A DNA stretch of 42,993 nt, taken from positions 1 through 42,993 of the forward strand of contig CAIYSR010000144.1 in assembly GCA_903928895.1 (NCBI GenBank), in the 5' to 3' direction. The notes below the pieces were generated by a model, which worked only from the letters and a program-made list of their open reading frames with translations, was not told the origin of the DNA and searched no databases. Of this stretch, positions 5,071-23,150 are shown piece by piece; the stretch's first letter is position 1; each line of letters begins with the position of its first letter. Position numbers and translations under genes: made by a program. The stretch comes from an uncultured Rhodospirillales bacterium (GTDB lineage Bacteria; Pseudomonadota; Alphaproteobacteria; Acetobacterales; Acetobacteraceae).

Positions 5071-6634
5071 CAGGCGGTCCCACCGGCTGTGCCGGCGCGC
5101 GCCGGGCGAACGGCACGCAGATCAGCGCCGCGATCGTCAACGCCGCGATCAGCCCCCAGGCGTCGGCAATGGCCCGGGCCAGCGCGGCGGTCTCGATCAA
5201 CGGCTGCACCAGCGCCTGGGTGACCGGGTCGAGCGGGTCGGCGGCGGCGAACAGGTCGAGCGGGAGGCCGATGTCGCGCGCCGTTTCGGTGTCCCCGGCC
5301 AGCAGGCCGCGCGCAATCTCGGAACCATGCGTCGCCGAGCGGCTGTAGATGACCGTGTCGATCAGCGCGATGCCGATGGCGCCGCCGAGGTTGCGCATCA
5401 GGTTGAACAGCCCGCTCGCGTCGGGCACCCGGCGCGGTTCCAGGTTGCCGAGCGCCAGCCGGGTCGGCGGCAGCAGACAGAACATGATCGCAACGCCACG
5501 GATCACCTGCGGCCAGAACATGCCGGCGAAATCGGTCTGCGGCGTCTGCCAGGCGCTGAGTCCGAGACCGAGGGCGAACAGGGCGAACCCCGCCGCGGTC
5601 AACAGCCGCGCCCCAAGCCGCTGCTCCAGGATGACCGCGACCGGCGCCATCACCAGCTGCGCCGTGCCGGTGACCAGCATGATCGCGCCGATCTCGAGCG
5701 CGTTGTGGTGCCGCACGAAGGCGAGAAAGACCGGCATCAGATAGACCGACCCGAACAGCCCGATCCCCAGCACGAAGCTCAGCACGCAGCCGATCGCGAA
5801 GTTGCGGTGGGCGAAACTGCCGAGATCGACGATCGGGTGACGCGCCCCGCGGGTCCGGCCGACAAATCCGCCGAGGCTCGCCGCGCTGAGCGCCAGCAGC
5901 CCGATCACGAGCCCGGCGGTCCAGCCCCGCGCCGGTGCCTCCTTGAGGGCGATTTCCAAGGCGGCGAGCGCGGTGGCCATCATCACCAGGGACGCGAGGT
6001 CGAGCGTGCGGACCTCCTGCAACCGGAGCGCGGCCTTCGGCAGCAGCAGACTTGCCAGACCAGCGGACAGGAGACCGGGCAGGACATTGACGAGAAACAG
6101 CCAGTGCCATGAATAGGTCTCGGTGATCCAGCCGCCCACCACCGGCCCGACCGTCGGCGCCAGCACCGCCAGGACGCCGGCAAGCATGGTGGCCACACCC
6201 CGGCGCCGGACCGGGAAGAGCAGGAACACCGCCGAAAACACCGCCGGAATGAGGGTCCCGCCGGAAAAACCCTGCACCACCCGCCAGGCCACCAGGCCGG
6301 AGAAACTGCCGCTGGCCGCGCAGCCCAGCGAGGCCAGGGTGAACACCGCGATGGCCACGACAAACAGCCAGCGCATGCTCAGCATCCGCGTGAGCAGCCC
6401 GGTGAGGGGAATCGCGATCACCTCGGCGATGAGATAGGCGGTCTGCACCCAGCTCATCTGGTCCGCCGCGATGCCCAGCGCGCCCTGGATGGTCGGCAGC
6501 GATGTGGCGACGACCTGGATGTCGAGGATCGCCATGAACATGCCGGTGCACATGGCGGCGAAACCGACCCAGGTCCCCGCCGTCAGCGCTCGGGGCGCCG
6601 CCGGCTCAGACGCCGACGGCATGTTGTGCTGCAT
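5066..6634 (-). CDS. DHA2-family MFS drug/metabolite exporter
   Basis: About 522 residues with roughly 14 hydrophobic segments, as in the EmrB/QacA (DHA2) proton-driven exporters. The first helices carry the family signature LDIQVVATSLPTI and later WVQTAYLIAEVIAIPLTG. The start lies inside the upstream methyltransferase gene: ATG 6634 is given, ATG 6622 is equally possible, and neither has a strong ribosome site, which suggests translational coupling. As third gene of the type III PKS operon it most likely exports, or protects against, the polyketide product. That role is inference from position. Confidence 0.88.
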   Translation of the reverse strand: MQHNMPSASEPAAPRALTAGTWVGFAAMCTGMFMAILDIQVVATSLPTIQGALGIAADQMSWVQTAYLIAEVIAIPLTGLLTRMLSMRWLFVVAIAVFTLASLGCAASGSFSGLVAWRVVQGFSGGTLIPAVFSAVFLLFPVRRRGVATMLAGVLAVLAPTVGPVVGGWITETYSWHWLFLVNVLPGLLSAGLASLLLPKAALRLQEVRTLDLASLVMMATALAALEIALKEAPARGWTAGLVIGLLALSAASLGGFVGRTRGARHPIVDLGSFAHRNFAIGCVLSFVLGIGLFGSVYLMPVFLAFVRHHNALEIGAIMLVTGTAQLVMAPVAVILEQRLGARLLTAAGFALFALGLGLSAWQTPQTDFAGMFWPQVIRGVAIMFCLLPPTRLALGNLEPRRVPDASGLFNLMRNLGGAIGIALIDTVIYSRSATHGSEIARGLLAGDTETARDIGLPLDLFAAADPLDPVTQALVQPLIETAALARAIADAWGLIAALTIAALICVPFARRAPAQPVGPPG

Positions 6635-20710: not shown

Positions 20711-21262
20711 TCAGAGCGATAAAAAGCGGAAGCGGGGTGGCGGCGGGTCGTGCGGGTGTGGCGCGGGGGATGGGCGTGGAACCGGAATGGGGGCGCGGGG
20801 CTGGCGGGGCCGAGGGCGGACGGAGGCGCGGGGGTCATGCAGTCCGGGGGCGGTGACGCCGAGCATGTGGCAGAGCGGGCGGAGGATGCGGGCGGCCTGG
20901 GGGGCGGCGGCGAGGAAGTCGGCGAGGTCGGGGGTGTGGGCGAGGAGGTGTTGGAGCTGGGAGGCGAAGCCGGCGACCTGGTAGCCGCAGGCGACGACGA
21001 GCCAGGTGCGGCCGTTGGGGACGGCTGGCCTGGGTCGGGGCTGGTGGGGCCGGGTTTGGCCGGCGCGGGATTTGCGGGGTTTGGGCAGGGTGTTGGCGCG
21101 GAAGCGGGCGAAGAGGCGCTCGAAGCGGGTGATGGCGCGGCCGATGCGGGTATGGATCAGGGTGAGGAGGGGGATGCTTGCGTGATCGCGGGCCATGACG
21201 ACGCCGAGGGCGGCGCGCAGGCCGGTGAGGATGGCGCGGAAGGAGGTGGGCAGGGTGAACAT
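20711..21262 (-). CDS. Lineage-specific hypothetical protein, basic and Pro/Arg-rich
   Basis: A 183-residue protein with an amphipathic N-terminal helical part (MARDHASIPLLTLIHTRIGR, ITRFERLFARF), a basic Pro-rich linker, a conserved-looking core GYQVAGFASQLQHLL and AAPQAARILRPLCHMLGV, then a long Pro/Arg-rich tail. No signal peptide. I recall similar proteins from Acetobacteraceae genomes but no function. Unlike its neighbours it has an AT-rich, consensus-like promoter placed so close that the mRNA would be almost leaderless. It converges on the permease operon. Confidence 0.65.
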   Translation of the reverse strand: MFTLPTSFRAILTGLRAALGVVMARDHASIPLLTLIHTRIGRAITRFERLFARFRANTLPKPRKSRAGQTRPHQPRPRPAVPNGRTWLVVACGYQVAGFASQLQHLLAHTPDLADFLAAAPQAARILRPLCHMLGVTAPGLHDPRASVRPRPRQPRAPIPVPRPSPAPHPHDPPPPRFRFLSL

Positions 21263-21534: not shown

Positions 21535-22278
21535 TCAGCGCGCGGCGCGGCGGCGGCGGATCACGCCGAGGCCGGCGAGGCCGGCGCCGAGGAGGAGCAT
21601 GGTGGCCGGCTCGGGGACGGGATCGGGCACGCTGGTGTTATTGATGAAGAGGAGATCGCCGATGTTGCCCTGCTGGGGATTCAGGGCAACGGGCGAGATG
21701 GGGTTGGGCAGGGGGCTGTCGAGCAGGGTGGGCGAATAGTTGCCGGTGCTAAAATTCTGCGGGGCGAACGCAAATCCGGCCGAATTCTTGATGCCGAAGG
21801 CATAGTTGGTTTCGTGGCTGGTGCCCGGATTGGAATCATACAACTGGATATACTGAGCGCTCAGCGCGCCGCTGGCATCGACCGATTTGAAGCCGCCGGT
21901 GGTGAGGTCGGTGACGGTGATGTTGTAGTCGGTGGATTGGAAGGTGGCCGGGTTCGGGTTGTATTGAATGCCGGTGAAGCCGGGAATGGAGCTGGCGACG
22001 AACTTGCTCAGATCGTAGGAGATGGTGAGCTTGAACTGGTCGCCGATCCAGCTGTTGGCGGGGTGGAGGTTGAACTGGTCGGTTTCCGCCGGGCGGAAAA
22101 TCCCGAGCTGGTCGTACTGCGCCAGCCAGTAGCCGTTGGTGATATCGAAGGCGGTGCCGAAGATGGTGGTGGTCACCATGTCGGCGCGGGCGGTGGCAGC
22201 GCCGCCGATCAGAGCGGCTGCCGCCACGGCGAAGGCGAGGCGGGCGGCCCCGCGCAGGGTCGCGTGTGTCTTATTCAT
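21535..22278 (-). CDS. PEP-CTERM sorted exported protein 1
   Basis: A 246-residue secreted protein. An N-terminal signal peptide covers about residues 1-32 (ending TARA|D) and a C-terminal PEP-CTERM signal has VPEPATMLLLGAGLAGLG followed by RRRRAAR. The body is Asn/Thr/Ser-rich with beta-strand-like patterns. Such proteins are processed by an exosortase (EpsH) and usually end up in exopolysaccharide or at the cell surface; no exosortase is in this window. AGGGGA precedes ATG 22278. A sigma-54 promoter lies 74 bp upstream. Confidence 0.88.
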   Translation of the reverse strand: MNKTHATLRGAARLAFAVAAAALIGGAATARADMVTTTIFGTAFDITNGYWLAQYDQLGIFRPAETDQFNLHPANSWIGDQFKLTISYDLSKFVASSIPGFTGIQYNPNPATFQSTDYNITVTDLTTGGFKSVDASGALSAQYIQLYDSNPGTSHETNYAFGIKNSAGFAFAPQNFSTGNYSPTLLDSPLPNPISPVALNPQQGNIGDLLFINNTSVPDPVPEPATMLLLGAGLAGLGVIRRRRAAR

Positions 22279-22340: not shown

Positions 22341-22397
22341 TGTCAAGCATCGCAATTTTCGTGCCACATCTCGATGTCCTTGATTTGTCAAGCATCG
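22341..22397 (-). repeat. 12-bp direct repeats in the PEP-CTERM 1 promoter
   Basis: CGATGCTTGACA (minus strand) occurs at 22386-22397 and again at 22341-22352, 45 bp apart. The second copy directly follows the -12 element and covers the expected transcription start. It could bind a repressor or a second regulator. It is not seen at PEP-CTERM gene 2. Confidence 0.4.
22352..22366 (-). promoter_or_regulatory. Sigma-54 promoter of PEP-CTERM gene 1
   Basis: The minus strand reads TGGCACGAAAATTGC, an exact match to the -24/-12 consensus TGGCACG-N4-TTGC. Transcription would begin near 22340, giving a leader of about 60 nt. Sigma-54 promoters need an ATP-driven activator bound upstream. Confidence 0.85.
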
Positions 22398-22427
22398 TCG
22401 CTGTGATGGCGGGGACGGGGTGGAAGA

Positions 22428-22449
22428 TGTGTAAAGTTTCCTGACTCCT
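22428..22449 (-). promoter_or_regulatory. Putative activator (UAS) site A
   Basis: A 22-bp element (plus strand begins TGTGTAAAG and ends TTTCCTGACTCCT). It matches site B at 23129 in 21 of 22 positions. It lies 61 nt upstream of the -24 box, a usual distance for an enhancer-binding protein site. A PrsR-like activator is the natural candidate because such regulators control PEP-CTERM systems; that assignment is inference. Confidence 0.7.
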
Positions 22450-22504
22450 TCCGGCCCGGCGCGCGATACCAGCCGCCCCAGCGCTGCGGTCGTCGGACGA
22501 AGGA

Positions 22505-23011
22505 TCAGCCGGCGCGGCGGCGGCGCAGCCATCCGAGGCCGGCGAGGCCGATGCCGAGGATCGCCATCGAGGCGGGCTCCGGCACGTCGACGTTGGCCGT
22601 GCCGGTGACGGAGAGGGCACTTTGCTGGTCAGCTGGGGTGCCCAGCAGGGTTTGGTAAAAATTCGATACCGCGAGCGGATCGTCATTCCCAAGGGCAAGG
22701 TTGTTGGCAAAAATGACCTGGAGCAGGTCGGTCGGGGCGTCATAGTCCGCGAAGCCGGCCGGCACACTCAGGTGGAAGCCGTAGGTGAATGTCGCGTTGA
22801 GGAAACTGCCCGAAACCGTGGTGTTGTCTGCGTACAACGCGTCCGTCGTCGCATCCCAGACGAAGCCGCCCGAGAGGGTTTCGGTGGCGCCGCCGGACAA
22901 GGTCATCGCGGCATCGGGCGACCAGACGTAGCTGATCAGGGTGTCCGCCTTGGCCTGGCCGATGGCGAGGGTGGCGAGCAGGGTGCTGACGGCGGCGATT
23001 TTCTTGAGCAT
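22505..23011 (-). CDS. PEP-CTERM sorted exported protein 2
   Basis: A 168-residue secreted protein with a signal peptide (about 1-21, ending QAKA|D) and a C-terminal VPEPASMAILGIGLAGLG followed by RRRRAG, the exosortase recognition and anchoring signal. The middle is a Thr/Ser/Asp-rich beta-type domain of unknown function. ATG 23011 has GGAG six bases upstream. The sequence differs from PEP-CTERM protein 1 except at the tail, so it is not a recent duplicate, yet both share promoter architecture. Confidence 0.88.
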   Translation of the reverse strand: MLKKIAAVSTLLATLAIGQAKADTLISYVWSPDAAMTLSGGATETLSGGFVWDATTDALYADNTTVSGSFLNATFTYGFHLSVPAGFADYDAPTDLLQVIFANNLALGNDDPLAVSNFYQTLLGTPADQQSALSVTGTANVDVPEPASMAILGIGLAGLGWLRRRRAG

Positions 23012-23053
23012 GGGAGGCTCCATGGTCCGGCGTGACGCGTCGTTTACCTTTAA

Positions 23054-23068
23054 GCAATTTTTGTGCCC
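23054..23068 (-). promoter_or_regulatory. Sigma-54 promoter of PEP-CTERM gene 2
   Basis: The minus strand reads GGGCACAAAAATTGC and then T, matching TGGCACG-N4-TTGCW at all invariant positions (GG at -24, GC at -12, correct spacing). Transcription would start near 23042, about 30 nt before the ATG. Confidence 0.8.
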
Positions 23069-23128
23069 CTTCAAAATATGCAATATTCCTAATACGTTGG
23101 TATGGGCTCCTTTGGCATTTCGTGCCCC

Positions 23129-23150
23129 TGTGTAAAATTTCCTGACTCCT
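23129..23150 (-). promoter_or_regulatory. Putative activator (UAS) site B
   Basis: A 22-bp element (plus strand begins TGTGTAAAA and ends TTTCCTGACTCCT), identical to site A except one base. It lies 60 nt upstream of the -24 box of PEP-CTERM gene 2, against 61 nt for site A. Shared sequence and shared spacing argue for one common activator. Confidence 0.7.

Follow-up and report, generated by a model that had tools for sequence, protein, structure and literature searches.

Two PEP-CTERM promoters of an uncultured Rhodospirillales bacterium as probable sigma-54 promoters of the PrsK-PrsR regulon with helically phased predicted activator sites

Results

Two PEP-CTERM genes are preceded by sigma-54 boxes and a shared upstream element

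Two PEP-CTERM genes located in the window, a stretch of 42,993 nucleotides from an uncultured Rhodospirillales bacterium, are very probably transcribed from sigma-54 promoters of the PrsK-PrsR regulon, at which phosphorylated PrsR would act through a DNA loop that would usually be bent by IHF and restricted to one face of the helix. The window represents contig C144 of a genome (G000) comprising 5.57 Mb in 191 contigs. Gene 1 (positions 21535..22278, minus strand) encodes a PEP-CTERM protein of 247 amino acids with the tail VPEPATMLLLGAGLAGLGVIRRRR (TIGR02595, 26.9 bits at a cut-off of 16), and gene 2 (22505..23011, minus strand) encodes a PEP-CTERM protein of 168 amino acids with the tail VPEPASMAILGIGLAGLGWLRRRR (25.5 bits, cut-off 16). 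As claimed in an earlier note on this DNA, all coordinates of which proved correct, both genes are preceded by sigma-54 -24/-12 boxes on the minus strand, TGGCACGAAAATTGC at 22352..22366 for gene 1 and GGGCACAAAAATTGC at 23054..23068 for gene 2. The ends of the -12 elements are separated from the ATG start codons at 22278 and 23011 by 73 and 42 nucleotides, respectively.

Upstream of these boxes, two 22-mers are found on the minus strand, AGGAGTCAGGAAACTTTACACA at 22428-22449 and AGGAGTCAGGAAATTTTACACA at 23129-23150, which are equal in 21 of 22 positions and lie 61 and 60 nucleotides from the boxes, again as previously described. Searching the window with the 22-mer and up to three mismatches returned just these two places, at a chance expectation of 0.00 in 100 shuffles. 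The length of the element had to be corrected: genome-wide, the conservation spans only about 17 nucleotides (GTCAGGAAAYTTTACAC; genome-wide form GTCRGVAAAYTTTACAC) and the flanking AGGA is absent from most sites, and a site of 22 nucleotides was therefore rejected. The predicted activator sites, which correspond to motif 1 of the PEP-CTERM box, are GTCAGGAAACTTTACAC at 22429..22445 for gene 1 and GTCAGGAAATTTTACAC at 23130..23146 for gene 2, both on the minus strand and positioned 62 and 61 nucleotides from the respective sigma-54 box.

Following the PEP-CTERM genes, the window encodes a protein of 183 amino acids (20711-21262, minus strand) without a match in Pfam or NCBIfam. A relative of this protein with 73% identity is encoded behind a paralogue of gene 2 on contig C44 (just after position 63695, minus strand). 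Both 183-aa-type genes begin right after a stretch that resembles TTGACA/TATAAT by eye, and are possibly almost leaderless. No Rfam match at gathering scores, indicative of a structured RNA, was obtained in the window.

PEP-CTERM boxes in the genome

The earlier note had proposed a genome-wide scan for the site upstream of sigma-54 boxes. With up to three mismatches, the 17-mer occurs at 24 places in the genome versus one for the reversed-pattern control. Rather than lying scattered without sigma-54 boxes, 20 of the 24 copies are accompanied by a sigma-54-like box, scoring 10.9 to 24.0 bits, at distances of 48-51 or 60-62 nucleotides that were first read by eye, before matrix scoring. At the other four (C44:53001, C44:63695, C87:12964 and C175:49424) no sigma-54 box above 4.6 bits was found. 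One of these, C44:63695-63711, is a copy of motif 1 with two mismatches and a best box of -5.1 bits, located directly before the 183-aa-type gene of unknown family; this boxless copy may be a remnant or serve a different purpose.

Nineteen of the 20 boxed sites precede genes with TIGR02595 tails, in agreement with the reading given in the earlier note. Contig C94, which carries the exosortase gene, yielded no box in the matrix search. The remaining boxed site (C139:48433) lies in front of a response-regulator gene of the OmpR type (L138:3593-4336). It is a full PrsR-type box (C139:48433-48525; L138:3434 onward) with the sigma-54 box TGGCACAAGAATTGC at 61 nucleotides, and its location before a regulator gene possibly reflects a regulatory cascade.

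A box weight matrix was trained on the 20 boxed sites, and its scores consequently flatter these same sites. In the matrix search a box was found in front of 28 of the 62 PEP-CTERM tails of the genome (one of the 62, itself among the 28, is below the TIGR02595 cut-off) and in front of none on the reversed sequence. The reverse-complement control gave one match, which in both scores and spacing equals the genuine box of a neighbouring gene. Measured from the 17-mer, the gaps are 48-51 (six boxes) or 60-62 nucleotides (22 boxes), with none between. For 34 of the 62 tails the matrix search of the genome found no box, indicating that other regulation exists. At one locus (L013:1501-1541; C2:22264) two copies of motif 1 are arranged 24 bp apart, approximately two helical turns, with one PEP-CTERM gene downstream.

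The activator-site-to-promoter distance steps by helical turns across genomes

Public genomes were searched for motif 1 and a sigma-54 box 47-77 bases apart, which returned at least 118 stretches (loci L139-L256), and a sample of 299 genomes of the window's order yielded 26 positive genomes with 30 loci and zero reversed-pattern matches. The resulting 148 loci correspond to 147 distinct sites, of which the first search contributed 117 and the second 30; 141 sites were retained after dropping spacers more than 60% alike. The gaps between the 16-mer GTCNGNNANNTTTACA and the TGG of the sigma-54 box fall into three classes with means of 51.3 (n=29), 62.6 (n=90) and 74.0 (n=22) and standard deviations of about 1.1-1.2 each; gaps of 55-58, 67-70 or 72 do not occur among the 141 sites. 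The phase coherence of these sites at the best period is 0.82, as compared with a maximum of 0.34 in 2000 uniform random sets, each likewise given its own best period, and of 0.29 in 2000 unimodal sets. From the three main classes a step of 11.36 bp (bootstrap 11.05-11.68) is obtained, near the 11 bp per turn given for looping in supercoiled bacterial DNA in the available text of PMC8501960.

Gaps outside this range were searched in 62 genomes, namely the 26 positive ones of the window's order plus 36 to which loci of the first search had led. Between 17 and 47 six sites were found, all at 40-42, and between 78 and 108 the gaps were 85, 86, 97, 98 and 105. At the locus with the 105-bp gap (L287) a weaker second copy of the motif is present 62 bp from the promoter and 43 bp from the far copy, and due to this nearer copy the gap of 105 bp was rejected as an exception to the ladder. 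In an enlarged set of 167 sites (162 non-redundant), which takes in these outlying sites and further pattern matches, among them those of the window's own genome, the distances from the predicted activator site to the promoter in the 162 boxes cluster near 41, 51, 63, 74, 86 and 97 bp with almost nothing between. In a phylum-wide sample, three of 398 genomes matched, the own one among them.

Using a regular expression, a PEP-like first frame was detected downstream of 110 of the 167 sites, a rough count given that the choice of frame favours PEP-like frames and that many of the loci are truncated. Among the remaining 57, several carry tails of the VPLP, VPVP or PAP type by eye; some of the 57, without an exported protein, may be chance matches, and the same may hold for a few pattern matches such as L194 (Phascolarctobacterium MAG, gap 71). 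PrsR-type boxes before genes with PLP, VPLP or VPVP tails were observed at L148, L153, L156, L172, L231 and other loci, and the regulon thus seems to take in variant sorting signals.

A positioned IHF-like site in the spacer

IHF is a DNA-bending protein that acts between enhancer and promoter, and its published consensus is WATCARXXXXTTR. In the main orientation (YAANNNNTTGATW), this consensus is matched perfectly (9/9) in 21 of the 141 cross-genome spacers, whereas 60 dinucleotide shuffles of these spacers, which keep their AT content, gave 0.6 on average and at most three. At least 8/9 letters are matched in 60 spacers (null 9.5) and at least 7/9 in 111 (null 57). The reverse orientation is less enriched, with seven perfect matches (null 0.5) and 27 at 8/9 (null 8.5). 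Moreover, the matches are positioned: among the 162 sites, 69 of the 73 main-orientation matches of at least 8/9 begin at one of three positions counted from TGG (-42, -34 to -30 or -22 to -20), the middle one accounting for 59, and 20 of the 31 reverse-orientation matches lie at -20 to -17. The IHF consensus is found mostly 31-32 nucleotides ahead of the sigma-54 box and otherwise one turn off. The position at -34 to -30 is the commonest one in the 51, 62 and 74 classes alike, which indicates that the activator site shifts in steps of one turn, with the IHF site mostly at a constant distance from the promoter. In the 41 class, the three good IHF matches are located one turn nearer the promoter.

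At the window's own promoters the IHF-like sites, both on the minus strand, are weak. For gene 1 a site, ACGATGCTTGACA at 22386..22398, is found at the phased position (-32 from TGG) with five of nine consensus letters, and for gene 2 the site CAACGTATTAGGA at 23087..23099 is found at -31 from the sigma-54 box with six of nine. The promoter of the gene 2 paralogue on C44 contains an 8/9 site at the same place as that of gene 2. Among the 28 boxes of the genome, 16 show a match of at least 7/9 at -30 or -31, and 12 are without a 7/9 match near -31. Judged from these sequences, IHF probably matters less at the two window promoters, or its binding there is weak.

It is conceivable, albeit unlikely, that the middle element is bound by another protein such as HU or Fis instead of IHF, or that it consists of AT-rich DNA with an intrinsic bend. 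The weak sites of the window would agree with this explanation, as would the 30 of 141 spacers without a 7/9 match in the main orientation. Likewise, the PEP-CTERM gene GSU1943 was raised about 3-fold in Geobacter ihf mutants according to the available text of PMC7962754, which, by analogy, opposes a simple model in which IHF is required. However, shuffles that keep the AT content hardly ever reproduce the perfect matches, the matches are largely confined to the positions given above, and the consensus is two-part and specific. In addition, both IHF subunits, alpha and beta, are encoded in the genome (ihfA and ihfB; TIGR00987, 126.0 bits, and TIGR00988, 139.7 bits, both over cut-off). These observations argue for IHF as the protein that would usually bend the spacer.

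Common descent as an improbable explanation of the phased spacing

Alternatively, the phased spacing might reflect descent, in that a few ancestral promoters with the same sigma-54 box and PrsR site were inherited in the absence of any looping constraint. We consider this improbable. PEP-CTERM genes do multiply by duplication, and the paralogue of gene 2 on C44, which is 75% identical, has its own box and has kept the 61-nucleotide spacing. However, the classes remain when spacers more than 60% alike are removed (147 to 141 sites, and 167 to 162 in the enlarged set), the same classes recur in all three batches of loci, and the two classes coexist inside one genome, as described above. Nine of the 28 boxes in this genome lie outside the training set of the matrix and are likewise found at 49, 51 or 61-62. 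The spacers of the two window promoters are also unalike, since 22 of 61 positions are equal when they are right-aligned and 14 of 61 when left-aligned (raw position counts), without clear likeness. These results favour a loop that would be restricted to one face of the helix over inheritance.

PrsR is the probable activator

The genome encodes PrsR (626 bits, cut-off 502.6), termed the PEP-CTERM-box response regulator in NCBIfam, together with PrsK (525 bits), PrsT (537), an EpsB2 transferase (405) and an exosortase (185), all over cut-off and all on the single contig C94. The score of PrsR above its curated cut-off lends support to the suggestion of a dedicated, PrsR-like activator. At the locus L071:4065-8105, prsK and prsR are not adjacent, since reading frames of the other strand lie between them, and two of these frames (L071:4065-5081 and 5078-6100) look like genes of their own.

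When five candidates were scored per genome (limit 1e-130), PrsR exceeded its cut-off in 53 of the 299 genomes of the window's order. It is present in 23 of the 26 box-positive genomes versus 30 of the 273 others (Fisher p 8e-17, with genomes counted as independent and the own genome included). In 30 of the 53 PrsR-positive genomes the strict box pattern found no exact match, and we conclude that this pattern misses many boxes. The three box-positive genomes without an over-cut-off PrsR, one of which is a single contig, have a best NtrC-like match of 361-402 bits. These three genomes and five further long NtrC-like matches in the window's own genome (317-352 bits) would be compatible with another NtrC-family regulator as the activator. 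We regard this as very unlikely, since PrsR alone passes its cut-off, is encoded on the same contig as the exosortase and co-occurs with the box. Furthermore, the available text of PMC3333781 reports that the five predicted PEP-CTERM targets of DVUA0057, a PrsR orthologue, were enriched in DAP-chip, a study in which no motif was validated.

Finally, the notion that the shared 22 bp are a recent-duplication leftover or a chance repeat can be dismissed with near certainty, because, despite the adjacent genes and related tails, the two proteins (P0001 and P0002) align over the 25-residue sorting tail alone (19 of 25 identical; the sole other match, eight residues at E 13, is meaningless), which together with the unalike spacers leaves no sign of duplication between gene 1 and gene 2, and because the site recurs genome-wide before other genes; for the 22-mer in the window, the chance expectation was 0.00, as given above. 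In both respects, the difference of the proteins outside their tails and the rejection of a duplication, the earlier note was right.

Discussion

The sigma-54 holoenzyme needs the ATPase of an activator. At the promoters described here this activator would be PrsR, a predicted NtrC-type protein with a Fis-type DNA-binding domain, the phosphorylated form of which would bind to GTCRGVAAAYTTTACAC. The 17-mer is located at about -88 to -105 in sigma-54 numbering, and the DNA of the spacer would be bent, usually by IHF near -57 to -45, which would bring PrsR into contact with the sigma-54 holoenzyme at -24/-12 and allow PrsR to open it. Such a short loop would need both the bend and the correct face of the helix; hence, the activator site would be tolerated only at whole helical turns, corresponding to 61-62 nucleotides at the window promoters. 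From the observed sites, the spacing ladder, the IHF-like motif and the presence of the genes we infer binding by PrsR and by IHF as well as an effect of helical phase. Since the outer GT/AC and inner AA/TT of the 17-mer appear symmetric by eye, PrsR presumably binds it as a dimer.

The layout of motif, spacer and sigma-54 box was already described in 2006, and the finding in the window is therefore a correct rediscovery; the earlier note overlooked this publication of the regulon and its motif. In the available text of Haft et al. 2006 (PMC1569441), the PEP-CTERM box consists of motif 1 (17 nucleotides, containing TTTACA), a spacer with a mean of 62.8 nucleotides (SD 10.6, range 32-92) and the sigma-54 motif 2, which has GG at -24 and GC at -12 and lies 23-221 nucleotides before the start codon. 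Of 167 PEP-CTERM genes from proteobacteria, 99 were preceded by the box in that study, and PrsR was predicted to be the activator. The window promoters share TTTACA at the 3' side of motif 1 (compared with the written description of the motif), their spacers of 62 and 61 nucleotides are inside the published range, and so are their GG/GC boxes 73 and 42 nucleotides before the ATG. Likewise, PEP-CTERM tails are encoded downstream, and PrsR, PrsK, PrsT and an exosortase are encoded in the genome. In contrast to the present analysis, the available text of the 2006 study gives the spacing as a mean with SD, and IHF, periodicity, phasing and bending are absent from it, with the word "helical" confined to the title of a reference.

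Related promoters have been studied elsewhere. High expression of pepA in Aquincola tertiaricarbonis needs RpoN1, and its transcription start was mapped, as stated in the accessible text of PMC9850573. Like the window genes, pepA is a PEP-CTERM gene with a -24/-12 promoter, in this case mapped, and a predicted upstream enhancer; unlike here, a single gene is concerned, the enhancer is merely mentioned, and terms for IHF, helical phase or spacer are absent from that portion of the paper. At IHF-assisted sigma-54 promoters, including those of nif and toluene genes, an IHF site likewise lies between the activator site and the promoter and bends the DNA (PMC7962754, available text). These promoters employ another activator and site, whereas at the PrsR boxes the IHF position is preferred and the activator site steps by turns. 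Natural Vibrio qrr sigma-54 enhancers tolerate insertions and deletions of 10-11 bp, while those of 5-6 bp are predicted to matter (PMC4740811, in the text at hand); phasing at sigma-54 enhancers is thus no new principle. That work covers 61 qrr genes of one genus, as far as its available text goes, whereas the present one deals with PrsR boxes from Pseudomonadota and, going by the sequence records, from some other lineages as well. A joint statement of PEP-CTERM regulon, helical phasing and IHF was not found in the literature searched, which leaves most subscription journals outside; in the available text of PMC12325454, PEP-CTERM is present and is not joined with IHF or the helical subject. 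Provisionally, the novelty beyond the known box would therefore lie in the details of phase and IHF, that is, in the spacing ladder and the positioned IHF consensus.

With fair rather than full confidence, we propose that one rule governs these promoters in several phyla. According to this rule, the PrsR site, the IHF bend and the sigma-54 box would have to be on matching faces, so that whole turns of about 11.4 bp would be permitted and half-turns excluded, and selection would have recorded the helical repeat of DNA inside the cell. The promoters should then be reliably recognisable in any genome, even where, as with the response-regulator gene, the target is not a PEP-CTERM gene.

PEP-CTERM proteins have been implicated in the formation of flocs and in surface layers linked to exopolysaccharide, and in the literature searched their regulation has seen few direct tests since the prediction in 2006. 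With the spacing ladder and the position of the IHF site, what had been a loose motif becomes a precise and testable promoter grammar. This provides a sharper rule for finding members of the regulon and has already pointed to one likely cascade, the PrsR box before the gene for an OmpR-type regulator.
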